Translations under genes and position numbers: made by a program | Virus record (IMG/VR): IMGVR_UViG_3300019890_000015 | Coordinates: 1 to 31,316 of that record | Strand: one strand, 5' to 3' | DNA: 31,316 nt | From: a virus | Notes under the pieces: model-generated | Databases searched by the model: none | Told to the model about the DNA's origin: nothing | What the model saw: only the letters and a program-made list of their open reading frames with translations | Part shown: positions 8,720-15,503 of the stretch, in pieces | Position numbering within the stretch: position 1 is the stretch's first letter | How the letters are laid out: each line of letters begins with the position of its first letter

Positions 8720-9838
8720 TTACCCCGCCGGGTTTACGTCAACTTGATTCAGTCCGCCTAGGCCATTTTGATTGCACAGTTCCAATTCTGTGACTGTGCC
8801 CTCGGAACTATTTTGCTTGTGCTTCACTGCCTTGAGAAAGACAGTCTGGGAATTACTAAGATTGGTCGGCCATATCATCGGGCTGTTGAGCGCAATCTGT
8901 TGCGGCGAACCGGTGACCTTAGTTATCCATAGTTGTCCATCCGGAGCGAACCATCCAGGAACCGTGACATTGATAATGCAAGACGTCAGTTGATTAATCG
9001 ATTGCTGATGGTCGGCAAACATTTGCGCGGCTTGCTTGTCGCCAGCCATCGGCATTGGAATCGTCTGCTTGCGCTGCGCCGCTATGCCAGTCAAAGTAGT
9101 TTGACTCTGTGACGACGCAGACACGTCCTGTGATTCTGCCATTGAGTGAGTATCGTTCCCAGTGTTCTGACCGACAGTATCGACCCTTTGTGTAAGTGGA
9201 TTGTTCTCGAAGAAGGCGCGCGCCTTCAAAATGTTCTGCCCTTCAGTGAGCGCCAGACCTGACCCGCCTGCGCTCGTATCGCCGCGGAAGAACACCCAAG
9301 TGCCGTCCGAATCCTCGGTCATTTGCAGGTTGCGCATTTGTGCGAGCATCGACACAAAATCGATAATCGGCTGGCCGATATGTTCCGAAACTCGCTCAAA
9401 TGGCTTGTCAGCCCCAGATGGCGAACCTACTAGACTGACGTTGATGCCAACTTTGCCAGCCGCCGCTTGGGCAATCTGCACGAATGTTGAATTCGTATAC
9501 TGGCCTGGTTTGCCGTCCACCGTTGAGGTTATGACGTTCTGGACCGCAGAGTAGACGCGGATTTGGATGTGGTGGACTCCAGCATCAAAATAAATTTGTC
9601 TCAAGTCCACGAAGGCATTATTCATGACTGGCAGGCCGGCGAGAGAGACCATCGCTTGGTCTCCCGGGCCGATGCGCCAGCCGGCGATGCCGCTAGTCAG
9701 TGAGCTTGCAACCTCCGCGACCTCAAATGTCGCATATGTCGGCGGTTGCCCAATTACCCGCTCAACAACGACTGATTCCCATTGAGAGAATGTCTGGCCG
9801 TTAACAACGAGGTCGGCCGTGACTACGCCATTCGACAT
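8720..9838 (-). CDS. Baseplate hub protein, Mu gp44 (gpP) family
   Basis: A 372-residue hub protein. Features shared with Mu gp44 include an N-terminal beta domain (VVVNGQTFSQWESVVVERVI in part), a middle FERVSEHIGQPIIDFVSMLAQMRN helix region, and a C-terminal section with PMPMAGDKQAAQMFADHQ followed by VPGWFAPDGQLW, the typical region before the last beta domain. Such hubs form the central trimer between the tube and the spike. A long Ser/Gln-rich stretch (about 230-255) precedes the C-domain. The ATG is at 9838-9836 with AAGG upstream. The upstream gap holds an opposite-strand gene, so this gene may depend on read-through from the tape-measure transcript. Confidence 0.85.
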   Translation of the reverse strand: MSNGVVTADLVVNGQTFSQWESVVVERVIGQPPTYATFEVAEVASSLTSGIAGWRIGPGDQAMVSLAGLPVMNNAFVDLRQIYFDAGVHHIQIRVYSAVQNVITSTVDGKPGQYTNSTFVQIAQAAAGKVGINVSLVGSPSGADKPFERVSEHIGQPIIDFVSMLAQMRNLQMTEDSDGTWVFFRGDTSAGGSGLALTEGQNILKARAFFENNPLTQRVDTVGQNTGNDTHSMAESQDVSASSQSQTTLTGIAAQRKQTIPMPMAGDKQAAQMFADHQQSINQLTSCIINVTVPGWFAPDGQLWITKVTGSPQQIALNSPMIWPTNLSNSQTVFLKAVKHKQNSSEGTVTELELCNQNGLGGLNQVDVNPAG

Positions 9839-9855
9839 ATATCAGCCTTATCACA

Positions 9856-9912
9856 TAATAGGCATTTGCCCTTTTCTCTTGACAACGACGGGCAAATGTC
9901 CTAAGCCTATTA
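9856..9912 (+). repeat. Interrupted inverted repeat flanking the moron promoter
   Basis: The left arm taataggcatttgccc (9856-9871) has its reverse complement on the right as gggcaaatg (9890-9898) plus gcctatta (9905-9912). The right arm is interrupted by six or seven extra bases around 9899-9904. The candidate -35 sits in the loop. It could be an operator, a hairpin at the leader, or a remnant of insertion. Confidence 0.6.
9879..9907 (+). promoter_or_regulatory. Candidate promoter for the plus-strand moron gene
   Basis: A perfect -35 TTGACA at 9879-9884 is followed after 17 nt by a weak -10 (TAAGCC at 9902-9907, only two consensus positions matched). It lies 23 nt upstream of the gene's start codon. 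The weak -10 lowers confidence, and activator dependence is possible. Confidence 0.4.
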
Positions 9913-9914
9913 AG

Positions 9915-9920
9915 AGGAGG
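9915..9920 (+). promoter_or_regulatory. Strong ribosome binding site (AGGAGG) that fixes the moron start
   Basis: A full AGGAGG lies 9 nt before the ATG at 9930, directly ahead of a signal-peptide start. It selects this ATG over longer in-frame alternatives upstream. Confidence 0.8.
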
Positions 9921-9929
9921 AACACCACA

Positions 9930-10379
9930 ATGAACAAAACAATTCTTGCAGCCGTAGTGATGGCAGCGATCTCTGGGCCCGCGATGGCAGCGAACTGTTA
10001 TGACGGCAAGACCGACGATTGCACCGCTGCATGGAGCTTGGCGCACAAGCCGAAGACGCTGCGTGATGGTGATGACAAGGATTGCTCAGGGCCGATTCTG
10101 CAACTAAAAAGTGAACGCTGCCTTTCGCAGATACGCGGGCCCACCTCTGACCAGCAGTGCCTTGGCCATGTCCATTATATGGCCGATGGCATGCGCAAAT
10201 CCGAAACCTTCGCCATCACCGCGATGACAATTAACCAGAAGACCGGTGCCACGCTTTACGGCGGCCACGGCACAAATTGGTATGCGCCGAACGAAATAAG
10301 AATTACTGGGCACTGTAACTTTATCCCCCAGCATACGCCAGTCGATTCGCAAGGCGATAAATATTACGAACCTCAGTGA
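9930..10379 (+). CDS. Secreted six-cysteine moron protein (opposite strand to the late operon)
   Basis: A 149-residue protein of unknown family. Residues 1-20 are a textbook Sec signal peptide ending GPAMA, followed by the mature start ANCYDG. The mature part has six cysteines (residues 23, 31, 52, 64, 77, 129) that could form three disulfides, which points to a periplasmic or extracellular protein. It is the only convincing gene on the plus strand. It abuts the tape-measure stop directly (TGA at 10377-10379, opposing stop from 10380) and lies in the gap before the hub gene. The own SD, candidate promoter and orientation are classic for a moron expressed in the lysogen, for example in host-envelope modification. 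Function is unknown. Confidence 0.83.
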   Translation: MNKTILAAVVMAAISGPAMAANCYDGKTDDCTAAWSLAHKPKTLRDGDDKDCSGPILQLKSERCLSQIRGPTSDQQCLGHVHYMADGMRKSETFAITAMTINQKTGATLYGGHGTNWYAPNEIRITGHCNFIPQHTPVDSQGDKYYEPQ

Positions 10380-13037
10380 TTAAGCTTCTTGCCGGTTGTC
10401 GTAGCCTGGACGGCCGCGAGTCAACTTCACTTCCTGGAAGATGCCTTCGGTTCTTGCGCTCGCCTGCGTCCCTCTTGGAAAACCGGCAAGCTTGATATCG
10501 ACGCCGGCCCGTCCAGTAACCGTGTGGTTCATTGACTCGTGCTGGCGGCGCACAGCAGGATCGAGGCCTTCCGGAGCGCGTCGAATCTCTAATCCTTGCC
10601 TGATTTTTTCAACATCAGTGCCGACCATATGACCGCCGCTGCGCCCGTAGTCCGGGGCCCTAGTATCGCCTTCGACGACGGGGATTCCCTCATCTGTTGC
10701 TGCTCCAGTGGCAATGGAGACATGTCCGCCTATCTGCCCTGGCCGCAGGCCGCGCATGCTGACAACCACATCTCCCTTTCGCGCATCCTTCGGGTCGACG
10801 TGGCTTCCCCACTTAGCCCAATTTGTTGCGACATTGGCGCCTTCTGGCCCAGAAATACCCGCCTTTTTGAAAGACGCGCTCACAAAAGCCCCGCACCAGC
10901 TGAGAGTCGCCGGATCCATGCCGGCGCCACCGGTTTGCAAATACTCTGCGATTAGGTCATGGCCCTTTGGATCATGATCCTTGAGCCCTTGCATCGTTTT
11001 GGCAAAGTCCGCAGCAGCTGACGATGATTTGACGACACCAGGGCCTGCTTTCGCAGCCGCTGCAACGTCAGCAGGGGAGCCGCCAGATCTTGACTCTACA
11101 TCACCAAGTCCATGAAGGAATCTGAGCCTCTTACTTACATCAGAATCAGGATACTTCGGCCGCTCATAATCACGAACGAGCGTGTCCACCATGCCTTCCG
11201 AACTTCCGCCGCCAGACAGCGCGGCCTTAGTCTTTGCAAACCTCGGATTTGTATCAACCTCCCATTTGAACGCCTTCATCTGCTCGCCGATAGACATATC
11301 CTGCGGAGCTTTGCCGAAATGCGCCTTAATAGCTTCCGACCGCGGTTTATCCCACTGCACCATACCAGCTGCATACTGGCCGTTGTTCATATTGGTATTT
11401 GCAGGATTTGCGAGCGACTCACCGCTAAGATTTGCGGTAATCGCTTTGGCCGCATCTGGGCTATATCCAGCATCAATCGCTGCCTGATAGGCCTCGCTCT
11501 GATTAGCGCGTAACCCACCTCCAGCCTTATCGCCACCACTACGCGTCAGAAGAGCCCGCGGGCCGCGTCCAGGGCCCGTAAGCTCACCGCCGCCCCCGGG
11601 GCCGCCCCCGGGGCCGCCGCCAGGGCCGCCAGCGCCCCCTGGGGTAGCAAGGCTCCACCAATCCTTGAAGGCCTGTAGAACGCCCTCAAAAACACCTTCC
11701 TTGACGTTCTTTTTGAATTCGATTGGCGCTCCCGCGCCGAGGGGGGTTAGGGCTGGCGGAGCGCCGGGGCCGGCATGCTGCCCATATTTGCGTTGCCTAG
11801 CCGCCTCGTCCTCGCCCTCATTGAGCGGTTGCGGCATTGCGAGCGCCGCGATACCGCCAGCGGCCAAAATAGCCATCCCTAGCGGCGTTGCCCCGAAGGC
11901 GAGTGACGCGGCAGTTGCCCTCCCTATCGCTGCTACAAGCCCTGTGCCGACTGCCGCGGAAAGACCCACAACGCTAGCGGTCATCCCAATGATAGCGGCC
12001 GCGGCGGGAGCCAGCCATGCGACAAGAGCTACCCCGACGACAAGCTTTAATGCGTTCGCCCAACCGCCAAAATAACCGACAAGGTCGCTTATCTGTTGCC
12101 CGAACCCCTTCCAATCGAAGTCACGAATTGCTGCAGCAATTCGCTTCATGATCTCGGCCATTTGCGCGCCATGCTCGTGCACGAACTCGCGTATCGAGTT
12201 GACGATATCCTCCAATGTCGGCGCGAGCCCGGCACCTATTTCCTCCTTGAGATATCCAACGCTTTCCCGCAATCGGTCGAAAGCTCGTTGCCCCGCGAGA
12301 CCGGCCGCGACCTGCTCCTTGGTCATATGCGTCATATGAGTTTCGATATCGTCGAGCTGTTCCTTGGTGTAATGCGCCCACTCTGGCGGTAGGCCTAAAA
12401 CTCCAAGAACCTTCTCTCTTCCCCCTCCCTTCTCCGGAATTTTCTGCAATTCTCGGAAGGTTATCGCGAGCGCGTCGGCTTCGTCCTTGGCTCCCTTGAG
12501 TTCGTTTCTGAACTTGGTGCCCTCGCCACCCTTCGGTATAAGCGGGCCGAGCTCATTGAGTGGTCCGGTGTTGAACTTTTGCAATTGCTCAAGGCTGGCC
12601 GCTAATTTTTGGATGCCGGCCGAGGCTTCGTCCTTCGAACCGCCGAGCCGCTCGGTAAGCTCTTGAAGAGCTCGGATTTTGTCGTACGAAAGACCGGTGG
12701 CCCGATTGAGCTGGTCGAGGTCCCGAGACGTTCCGGCGAACTCTTTGATGGCGCGGGAGATACCTTCTATCGCCCCGGCCGCCGTAACCGCGCCGAGGCC
12801 CAGCCCGACCATCGCGGGCAAAAGTGCGCCCTTGATTTGCTCAGCGCCGCCCTTCATGGATTTGCGCAGGTCTTCGAACGCGTTGCGGTGCTGGACCGCG
12901 AATTTCGAGCCTTCTTTGTGGACTACCTTTTCATAGTCGCCGAAGGTCCGGAGCTGTTTAACAAGCTCTTTTAGCGGGCCCGAAAAGCCATCAACGACGG
13001 CGGCTGTGAGTGCGAGTGTGTCAGCCTGGCTTGCCAT
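10380..13037 (-). CDS. Tail tape measure protein with muramidase and CHAP/NlpC-like domains
   Basis: An 885-residue protein that sets tail length and is ejected at infection. Residues about 1-320 are helical and coiled (start MASQADTLALTAAVVDGFSG). Residues 327-400 contain hydrophobic membrane-like segments. A Pro/Gly-rich linker (466-486) separates a phage-tail-lysozyme-type domain at about 511-640, with candidate catalytic Glu540 in the NLSGESL motif and an AAGMVQWDKPR block. A second cysteine-hydrolase-like domain lies at about 700-790, with Cys715 in LSWCGAFVSASF, the KGDVVV segment, and His772 in GQIGGHVSIATG. Two peptidoglycan-degrading activities would help the tail tip cross the wall. 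The start follows the frameshifted chaperone ORF by 9 nt with GAGG upstream. Confidence 0.9.
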   Translation of the reverse strand: MASQADTLALTAAVVDGFSGPLKELVKQLRTFGDYEKVVHKEGSKFAVQHRNAFEDLRKSMKGGAEQIKGALLPAMVGLGLGAVTAAGAIEGISRAIKEFAGTSRDLDQLNRATGLSYDKIRALQELTERLGGSKDEASAGIQKLAASLEQLQKFNTGPLNELGPLIPKGGEGTKFRNELKGAKDEADALAITFRELQKIPEKGGGREKVLGVLGLPPEWAHYTKEQLDDIETHMTHMTKEQVAAGLAGQRAFDRLRESVGYLKEEIGAGLAPTLEDIVNSIREFVHEHGAQMAEIMKRIAAAIRDFDWKGFGQQISDLVGYFGGWANALKLVVGVALVAWLAPAAAAIIGMTASVVGLSAAVGTGLVAAIGRATAASLAFGATPLGMAILAAGGIAALAMPQPLNEGEDEAARQRKYGQHAGPGAPPALTPLGAGAPIEFKKNVKEGVFEGVLQAFKDWWSLATPGGAGGPGGGPGGGPGGGGELTGPGRGPRALLTRSGGDKAGGGLRANQSEAYQAAIDAGYSPDAAKAITANLSGESLANPANTNMNNGQYAAGMVQWDKPRSEAIKAHFGKAPQDMSIGEQMKAFKWEVDTNPRFAKTKAALSGGGSSEGMVDTLVRDYERPKYPDSDVSKRLRFLHGLGDVESRSGGSPADVAAAAKAGPGVVKSSSAAADFAKTMQGLKDHDPKGHDLIAEYLQTGGAGMDPATLSWCGAFVSASFKKAGISGPEGANVATNWAKWGSHVDPKDARKGDVVVSMRGLRPGQIGGHVSIATGAATDEGIPVVEGDTRAPDYGRSGGHMVGTDVEKIRQGLEIRRAPEGLDPAVRRQHESMNHTVTGRAGVDIKLAGFPRGTQASARTEGIFQEVKLTRGRPGYDNRQEA
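11590..11625. repeat. Three 12-bp tandem repeats encoding the Gly-Pro linker of the tape measure
   Basis: Two exact copies of ccgcccccgggg (11590-11601, 11602-11613) are followed by a variant ccgccgccaggg. They encode the GPGGGPGGG part of the linker. Such repeats can change copy number by slippage. Confidence 0.85.
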
Positions 13038-13046
13038 CAGACGACC

Positions 13047-13537
13047 TCATTCGCTTTCGCGCTCGCGCATCCGCCGATTGACGGCTTGGCACAATCGCTC
13101 AATTTCATCAGGAGATTTGTCGAGAAACTCATAAGGGGAAACATGAAACAAGAACGCCAAATCGATGCATGCAGACGTCAGGCCTGACCCGCCGCTGGCA
13201 GAAAAAAAGGGGTGATAGCCCAGGAGCAGGCCACCAGGTCCTGAGGCGCCATTTTTTCAATGGAACCGCTAGGTATGTTGGCCAGGCGCGCGACCATGGC
13301 TTGAACGCGCTGCATATTGTGGGTGATTTTAGGCGGGTCAGAAACAGGATCGAAGTCTACAGGGTTGCCAACGCGAAGCAGGTCGGCGCCCGTAGGCATG
13401 CGCATCTTGATGATGCTGATAGTTTCTGTATAGGCCGGTATAGGCTTTATAAGCTTGACGTAGATATGATCCTTGTCCTGCTCCAAGTCTGATGGAAGCG
13501 CCTCCAGGCCTTCCGTGTCATTCTTCTCATGGGTCAT
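13047..13537 (-). CDS. Tail assembly chaperone, long form made by -1 frameshift
   Basis: The predicted fusion is 163 residues: 112 residues of the upstream ORF, then 51 residues in the -1 frame. The heptamer T TTT TTT (minus strand, 13208-13202) is in register with the upstream frame (CCT TTT TTT CTG). Slipping back one base gives an uninterrupted reading to TGA at 13049-13047. The extension ends in a helical, acidic-basic motif (CIDLAFLFHVSPYEFLDKSP, then IERLCQAVNRRM) typical of the second half of tail assembly chaperones in Mu- and P2-like phages. The second ORF has no good start of its own, and the tape-measure gene starts 9 nt later, exactly where such fusions end in other tailed phages. 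The long form is thought to bridge tape measure and tube subunits. Confidence 0.88.
13178..13537 (-). CDS. Tail assembly chaperone, short form (Mu gp41-like)
   Basis: A 119-residue zero-frame product, ending TPFFLPAAGQA after the slippery run. The core (HIYVKLIKPI, ETISIIKMRMPTGADLLR, NMQRVQAMVARLANI, MAPQDLVACSWAI) matches the Mu gp41-type tail assembly chaperone family. It lies between the tube gene (stop at 13539) and the tape measure, the conserved place for this gene. The ATG is 1 nt after the tube stop. Most product is expected to be this form, with a minority frameshifted. Confidence 0.85.
   Translation of the reverse strand: MTHEKNDTEGLEALPSDLEQDKDHIYVKLIKPIPAYTETISIIKMRMPTGADLLRVGNPVDFDPVSDPPKITHNMQRVQAMVARLANIPSGSIEKMAPQDLVACSWAITPFFLPAAGQA
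13202..13208 (-). promoter_or_regulatory. Slippery heptamer for programmed -1 frameshifting
   Basis: Seven consecutive T on the minus strand preceded by CCCC, in register as CCT TTT TTT CTG. It is positioned so that a -1 slip joins the chaperone ORF to the conserved second domain. P2-like phages use a closely similar T-rich slippery site at the same locus. Confidence 0.85.
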
Positions 13538-13538
13538 A

Positions 13539-13913
13539 TCAGGTTATTTCCTGCAGAGTTACCCCTTGGAAGATGACTGCCACCTTGCCATCGTGGGCGT
13601 CGATGACGCTTCCACCCTCATACCAGCCATTCGTAAGAACATAGCTGTTGCCGTTGGCTAGATCGATTTGGATAGTCGATTGAGTGATGTTTTCGAGCTG
13701 CACAATCGACAAATTATTGCCGATCGAAATCTCGCCCTTGATCTCAGGGACGATCGGCACCTCGATGTAGCCATGAACACCATCCATGCCTGCAACGCCG
13801 GTTCGCTTGACGATCATGCCAGTCACCATGAATGCGCCACGCGCCTCGAATTGGTTGCCGTCGACACGAAAGCTGAGTGTGCCGCCTATGCGATTAACAT
13901 TTGAAGTTGCCAT
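13539..13913 (-). CDS. Tail tube protein (Mu gpM-like)
   Basis: A 124-residue inner tube subunit, starting MATSNVNRIGGTLSFRVDG. The family features are the early RIGGT.S...DG..F.ARG.F turn, a central GYIEVPIVPEIKGEIS strand pair and a final TNGWYEGGSVIDAHDGKV segment. A longer frame begins at a TTG 12 nt upstream, but the ATG at 13913-13911 sits behind GGAGAC and is preferred. It follows the sheath gene by 30 nt, the normal sheath-tube order in contractile tails. Confidence 0.9.
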   Translation of the reverse strand: MATSNVNRIGGTLSFRVDGNQFEARGAFMVTGMIVKRTGVAGMDGVHGYIEVPIVPEIKGEISIGNNLSIVQLENITQSTIQIDLANGNSYVLTNGWYEGGSVIDAHDGKVAVIFQGVTLQEIT

Positions 13914-13943
13914 GGTAGTCTCCAAGAATTATGAGGCAGCACC

Positions 13944-15503
13944 TTACAGGCCAATGGACGTAGAAGCCCCTGACACATTCGGCTGAAAGAGCAGACGGAA
14001 TTGCGCCAGCACGGAAAAAATTCTCAGCGCCCCGGCTAGCTGTGGCGGCCAGAGAACATTCACTCTGTTAGGATTTGTGCTATCGATCTGAACGACGAGA
14101 TTGTTGGTGAAGTCCGTGACGTCGGACACCAGACCGTTGAACTGGGCGATGATGAACCTGGCAATGAGTTCTCCCAAGATTGTTTTAGGCGTAACTATCG
14201 CCTGCCCTGGGCCATAGGCCGTTCCATCCGGCACCAACTTCACGCGAGCAAATTTTGTCGTAATCGCGGACTTCAGGTCGCTCAGCAGAAACGCCAATGT
14301 CGCAAGTGTGGTGAGCAATGCAAATGCAGTGTCTGCCTGCCCAAAGCTGTTCAACTGGTACTGACTCGCCTCTCGCAGGATCATGGGGTTGCCATCAGGA
14401 GCAACCGCCTGAATTGCGAACCCTGAGTTGGTCAGATTATTGAGCTGAGCTTGCGAGAAGCGAAATTGAAGCTGCGCTGGCAGGACCCCGAGCATTTCCA
14501 AAGTCTGCAGCGGGCGCGCTGGATCATCTTGAAAGGCATTCGCAGCCAACCCGCAATATGCCGCCGCCCATTCCCATATCGGTGAAGGTGCTTGCTGCTC
14601 GATGGCCATCGATGAAATTACCGGAGCATTCGTCGATAGCCCGCGAGTGATCGCATCCGCGAAGTCATTGCGATAAGAGTTGACGACAAACCCGTATTGC
14701 TGGCGCGAGAAGCTCCAGCGGCCGGTCGCTCCAAAGCCAAATTCCGTTGCCCACACCGCTTCCGTTGCAGAATCGTTGTACGGCATGCCGACATAGAAGA
14801 ATTGATTGGCCTGGATGTTGGAGATAGCAGTTGTAAAAGTAGGAGCGCCAGTTCCTCCAGTTAACCACGCATTCGTGGTAGACGGAGGCGGCACTGTCAC
14901 TGTGAGCCCAAGCGGAAAAATCTGCCCGGCGGTGCCACCGAGATAATTCGGGATGCATGTGATGTCGTTGCCGGTGAGGCCCTTCCAAATGCAGGTGCAG
15001 GTGACGACACCAAGCGAGGATGCGGCAGTGACCGGCAGATCTACTGCGGCATTGATCGCAGCCGCAAGGTTTGTGGCCACAATGGTCACGGTGTCTGTAG
15101 CCGCAACGGACACCTGGACGAGCTGCCCTGCAATATAAATGAACAGCGTGCCGGCAGCAGTTGGGGCCGTTGCGATAGTGATCGTCCCTGTAGCCGCGGC
15201 TCCGGCGCCCGGATCTGGGACCGGGATGCAGTACAGAAGCTGATTTGGGTTGACCTTGAAAAACGCATTGACCATGCGCGTGAGCATGGAGCCTCTGCCA
15301 AACAGCAGCTGTCCAAGCGCAGGAGAGCCAACCGCGACAAGTGCGTTTGCTGTCGCTGTTCCCGCATTCGCTCCGGTTGAATTATACTGGCCGACGAGAA
15401 GCGCCGGCTGGTTTTGGGTTAGATTCCCAGCGAGCGAACCATCGACGGTTGCCCAAAATAATGGGACGTTCCAGTTGGCGGGAAGTCCGGTTGATACCGA
15501 CAT
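13944..15503 (-). CDS. Contractile tail sheath protein (Mu gpL-like)
   Basis: A 519-residue sheath subunit that contracts to drive the tube through the envelope. Visible family features include the N-terminal NVPLFWATVDGS start, a RMVNAFFKVNP segment, and a central inserted domain (about 105-185: TGTITIATAPTAAGTLFIYI, then DTVTIVATNLAAAIN, then KGLTGNDI). A conserved C-terminal block follows, from ARPLQTLEMLGVLP to the final GALRIFSVLAQFRLLFQPN. The length matches Mu gpL (495) closely. SD GGAGGCC lies before the ATG. A factor-independent terminator lies just upstream, so sheath expression may be tuned or have its own promoter. Confidence 0.92.
   Translation of the reverse strand: MSVSTGLPANWNVPLFWATVDGSLAGNLTQNQPALLVGQYNSTGANAGTATANALVAVGSPALGQLLFGRGSMLTRMVNAFFKVNPNQLLYCIPVPDPGAGAAATGTITIATAPTAAGTLFIYIAGQLVQVSVAATDTVTIVATNLAAAINAAVDLPVTAASSLGVVTCTCIWKGLTGNDITCIPNYLGGTAGQIFPLGLTVTVPPPSTTNAWLTGGTGAPTFTTAISNIQANQFFYVGMPYNDSATEAVWATEFGFGATGRWSFSRQQYGFVVNSYRNDFADAITRGLSTNAPVISSMAIEQQAPSPIWEWAAAYCGLAANAFQDDPARPLQTLEMLGVLPAQLQFRFSQAQLNNLTNSGFAIQAVAPDGNPMILREASQYQLNSFGQADTAFALLTTLATLAFLLSDLKSAITTKFARVKLVPDGTAYGPGQAIVTPKTILGELIARFIIAQFNGLVSDVTDFTNNLVVQIDSTNPNRVNVLWPPQLAGALRIFSVLAQFRLLFQPNVSGASTSIGL

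Follow-up and report, generated by a model that had tools for sequence, protein, structure and literature searches.

Programmed frameshifting in tail assembly chaperone genes is well known in tailed phages, and the survey by Xu et al. in 2004 is said to be the one that defined it. In lambda, two forms of the chaperone, gpG and gpGT, arise via −1 slippage before the tape-measure gene, while the chaperone shift of Mu is −2 (PMC5009743). P2 shifts −1 on TTTTTTG, a site that we confirmed in its sequence, and a hairpin is absent there and in P2-like phages (PMC3091744). For genes of a different, HK97-like tail assembly chaperone cluster, shifting of 6–7% has been measured (PMC3711429).

In this study, we analysed a virus record of 31,316 bases from IMG/VR, a single metagenomic contig (hereafter the window), which very probably provides a new instance of this phenomenon in a new branch. 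The head module on the − strand of the window is lambda-like (GpA terminase, lambda-family portal, S49 protease, and capsid E), and the tail module is contractile and Mu-like, comprising sheath, tube, chaperone, tape measure, DNA-circulation protein, and baseplate hub. The zero-frame chaperone is the counterpart of lambda gpG, P2 gpE, and Mu gp41, and its −1 extension is the counterpart of lambda T and P2 E′. The features concerned are as follows:

13944 to 15503, − strand: tail sheath protein (phrog_165, E=1.2e-138; PF04984)
13539 to 13925, − strand: tail tube protein (PF10618, E=1.1e-25)
13178 to 13537, − strand: zero-frame tail assembly chaperone, 119 aa (PF10109, phrog_166, gene order)
13205 to 13211, − strand: second in-register heptamer, C CCT TTT, overlapping T TTT TTT (sequence)
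13202 to 13208, − strand: slippery heptamer T TTT TTT in zero-frame register (sequence, relatives, rarity elsewhere in the window)
13178 to 13180, − strand: zero-frame TGA, end of the short product (sequence)
13047 to 13202, − strand: −1 frame extension, 51 codons plus stop, entered only via a −1 slip (selection, homologues)
13045 to 13048, − strand: GAGG, a putative SD-like stretch 7 nt upstream of the ATG of the tape measure and overlapping the stop of the −1 frame (read from the sequence)
10380 to 13037, − strand: tape-measure protein, 885 aa, with a C-terminal Phage_lysozyme2 domain and a CHAP-like region

The identity of the chaperone, as given in a preliminary description of this DNA, is upheld by a match to PF10109 (Phage_TAC_7, in full ‘Phage tail assembly chaperone proteins, E, or 41 or 14’) above the gathering score (E=2e-8, 34.6 bits against a cutoff of 25) and by the position of the gene, with the tube gene on one side and the tape-measure gene on the other; its match to phrog_166 (tail protein) has E=4.6e-12. 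The AlphaFold model of the zero-frame chaperone is confident (pLDDT 85), and the PDB held neither a fold match for the model nor a sequence match, so that structure is neutral for the interpretation. The C-terminal part of the tape-measure protein contains two possible cell-wall hydrolase domains, namely Phage_lysozyme2 (E=1e-15) and the weak CHAP-like region. Between the tape-measure and hub genes lies an ORF on the opposite strand (9819 to 10379, + strand), perhaps a cargo (moron) gene, whose product has a signal-peptide-like stretch (MNKTILAAVVMAAISGPAMAANC).

Read along the − strand, the zero frame is ...GCT ATC ACC CCT TTT TTT CTG CCA GCG GCG GGT CAG GCC TGA; seven codons separate the stop from the T run. 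The preliminary description correctly placed T TTT TTT (13208–13202) in register as CCT TTT TTT CTG, and its further statements that a −1 slip opens 51 codons to a TGA at 13047, that this frame ends 9 nt before the tape-measure ATG (at 13037), and that the fused length is 163 also agree with the sequence. It overlooked the second heptamer, C CCT TTT (13211–13205); a slip on either heptamer gives the identical protein. The extension (SASGGSGLTSACIDLAFLFHVSPYEFLDKSPDEIERLCQAVNRRMRERESE, stop TGA at 13049–13047) is part of a −1 frame that is open from stop to stop over 69 codons (13256–13047). The predicted fusion, with the predicted junction peptide ...ITPFFSASGGSG..., comprises 112 + 51 = 163 aa as against 119 aa for the short form, and the extension is predicted to be helical (structure model, pLDDT 85). 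Among 4040 codon positions taken from 12 further genes of the window, TTTTTTN was never found in register and any XXXYYYZ was found in register 14 times. Besides the T7 of the slip site, the 31 kb contain just one other 7-base run of T/A. Folding downstream of the window slip site revealed no stimulatory RNA structure standing out (z +0.2 and +0.4), and L016, one among six loci folded, gave z −2.0 in the downstream hairpin search. By eye, no SD-like stretch was seen just 5′ of the window slip site.

These sequence data, together with the comparisons given below, argue very strongly that this contractile-tail (E/41/14-type) tail assembly chaperone gene undergoes a programmed −1 ribosomal frameshift. 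We infer that slippage takes place, how efficient it is, and how the two forms share the work, as follows. Most ribosomes would read on to the TGA at 13178 and give the 119-aa chaperone, and a minority would move back by one base, while tRNA-Phe occupies both the P and A sites on U_UUU_UUU, to give the 163-aa form; alternatively, tRNA-Pro and tRNA-Phe would slip on the overlapping C_CCU_UUU, with the same product. If lambda gpG/gpGT is a guide, the part shared by both forms would bind the tape-measure protein, the rare helical extension would recruit tube subunits, and the ratio of the short to the long form would matter for tail assembly. Tandem −1 slippage of tRNA-Phe would be the simplest reading. 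In synthetic E. coli constructs, U_UUU_UUU shifted less readily than A_AAA_AAG (PMC5009743), which counts against slippage here.

The site, its register and conservation, coding selection on the extension, and homology were all directly observed. Searches with the chaperone and the sheath gathered relatives, giving 15 loci in all: 11 environmental ones (the window and ten further distinct loci) and four named phages (SfV, PG1, BgVeeders33, and EPP-1). The preliminary description had regarded lack of conservation of the −1 frame among relatives as evidence against a frameshift; frame, slip site, and position are kept in 15 out of 15 loci, with an X_XXY_YYZ heptamer in register at the homologous codon and a −1 extension in each. 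The heptamer is T7 in eight loci, T6C in five, T6G in one, and CCCTTTC in one, that is, U_UUU_UU(U/C/G) at the homologous codon in 14 of the 15 and C_CCU_UUC in L001. L001 is without the T run (CCTTTCTG) and its sole remaining heptamer is C CCT TTC, with the −1 frame kept. SfV, EPP-1, BgVeeders33, L014, and L021 have six T only, and their X_XXY_YYZ is perfect and in register. At every T6 locus TTT follows a codon ending in T, a pattern whose chance by codon usage is ~4e-21 under independence, although the loci are not independent. Beyond the zero-frame stop the −1 ORF of the 15 loci continues for 43 to 53 codons, except for 35 in L012, where it is ended by the contig edge. The search profiles were built from seven sequences, and L012, L014–L017, L019, L021, and L022, which were scored with them, agree. 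L023, a more distant relative, has the heptamer T6G.

Two of the relatives have peculiarities. In L024 (4577–5086) the −1 frame is homologous to that of L023, and GCT TTT ATG stands in place of an X_XXY_YYZ heptamer; the shift would, judging by this sequence, differ in type, possibly as a P-site-only slip. In L015 (3447–4151) a single ORF holds two tandem chaperone domains, the first ending in AWAISPWLMP and the second in AWAVTPFF. Pfam scores one stretch there, namely the first copy, and the slippery site and −1 extension are found on the second copy only.

Searched alone, the extension had no match in Pfam or PHROG and no meaningful tblastn match in phages; its homologues emerged only by reading the positions beside homologous chaperones. 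A DNA-level search of phage records gave no match, and single-sequence searches of genome contigs gave no relative with the chaperone and one distant relative, from Paraburkholderia, with the sheath. In the examined records of SfV, PG1, BgVeeders33, and EPP-1 (L005 to L008) the extension is unannotated, leaving a gap of ~130–140 nt between the chaperone and tape-measure genes.

Selection on the part past the zero-frame stop was assessed in the 10 pairs formed by the window, L001, L003, L012, and L016. When read in the −1 frame, pS exceeded pN in 10 out of 10 pairs (pS 0.49–1.04, pN 0.04–0.32), whereas the contrast was largely gone when the same bases were read in other frames, pS being about equal to or below pN. 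Third positions of the −1 frame held 207 of the 379 differences; the binomial p for this excess, 1.5e-17, makes the case look too strong since the pairs are not independent, although the direction is uniform. These substitution patterns indicate that the −1 frame past the zero-frame stop is under purifying selection.

The seven-T homopolymer in the window could also be read as a site of transcriptional slippage, at which RNA polymerase would add or drop bases so that part of the mRNAs encode the long form, and such slippage does occur in other genes (review, PMC5009743). We consider this very unlikely here because relatives without T7 keep the arrangement: L001, which has no T run, retains the −1 frame via C_CCU_UUC, and the five six-T loci keep X_XXY_YYZ in register. 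The T6C, T6G, and C CCT TTC loci all obey the X_XXY_YYZ rule, and transcriptional slippage is therefore disfavoured. Moreover, polymerase slippage does not require register conservation, and 6–7 T are short for it. It is even harder to credit that the downstream domain is a separate protein, made by re-initiation or from an internal start past the zero-frame stop and never fused. The preliminary description held that the −1 frame has no start of its own, which is right insofar as no start position is conserved across the loci but not literally so, as the −1 ORF of the window has, ahead of its last part, just two TTG codons, which lie 20 and 29 nt beyond the zero-frame stop and would allow a separate start. 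Both TTG codons lie within the conserved domain without an SD-like stretch and neither is conserved, while the examined part of the −1 ORF in L014, L021, and L007 contains no ATG, GTG, or TTG at all; a separate protein would also leave the slip site unexplained.

That the window is a single metagenomic contig might suggest an assembly error, or a decayed gene whose ancestor was one continuous frame. The chance of this is close to nil: the two-frame layout recurs in independent contigs and in isolate phages of different hosts, the extension is under selection, and conservation already refutes such a reading. A Mu-type −2 shift was also considered for the window and rejected: in the window, L001, and L003 the −2/+1 frame stops 88–93 nt before the tape measure and its sequence is not conserved.

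The preferred reading, a −1 ribosomal frameshift, may have a further consequence. Counted from the end of the −1 stop, a likely start for the tape measure is at −11 to +14 nt in 14 out of 14 loci, with the two overlapping as TGATG in L001 and L003, and the zero-frame stop lies ~130–160 nt upstream of it. With the −1 stop near and the zero-frame stop far upstream, mainly shifted ribosomes would arrive at the tape-measure start and re-initiate. It is conceivable, if rather improbable, that the frameshift thereby also sets tape-measure output; if true, one slip would tie the amounts of the long chaperone and the tape measure together. Within this tentative reading, the stacked C_CCU_UUU and U_UUU_UUU would allow changes to the site, such as that seen in L001, with the shift retained.

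Our analysis extends −1 chaperone frameshifting on U_UUU_UUN to a lineage of environmental contractile-tailed phages that has been little sampled. To a known phenomenon it adds comparative evidence, an exchanged heptamer (L001), and extensions that the records of named phages leave unannotated, which constitute an annotation gap. The exchange from T7 to CCCTTTC shows that the slip heptamer is replaceable while the frame and the extension remain under selection.

Among the described systems, lambda gpG/gpGT is the functional prototype, although lambda is a siphophage and is likened to the window by function, not by sequence. The similarity to the second half of Mu/P2-type chaperones, noted in the preliminary description, holds at the profile level: in an HMM search with the extension profile over all 236 ORFs read in six frames from the tail regions of Mu and P2, the −2-frame ORF of Mu ranked first (E 0.0048) and the E′ frame of P2 second (E 0.27), both scores being individually weak. 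Mu gp41 shares the gene position and the chaperone family name with the window chaperone, and its extension is the best of those ORFs, but Mu shifts −2 whereas the window and its kin shift −1. SfV, in its orf13 region, and its relatives (SfI, SfII, and EPP-1) share the Mu-like order of the tail module and have chaperones 31–35% identical to that of the window; SfV and EPP-1 have a GGT TTT TTC slip and a −1 extension homologous to the window's, differing in the T6C site and in that the extension is unannotated. The homology of the window extension to the −1 frames of SfV, PG1, BgVeeders33, and EPP-1 is clear, although those frames are themselves predicted. P2 differs from the window in having T6G instead of T7 and in an extension similarity that is at the profile level only. 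Like the window, it has an E-type chaperone in a contractile-tail operon, a U_UUU_UUN a few codons before the zero-frame stop, a −1 extension ending at the tape-measure start, and no evident stimulatory RNA structure. Because Mu shifts −2, the window resembles P2 and not Mu mechanically, and by its sequence the window system is to be classed as P2/SfV-type in direction and nearer to P2 than to Mu in mechanism.
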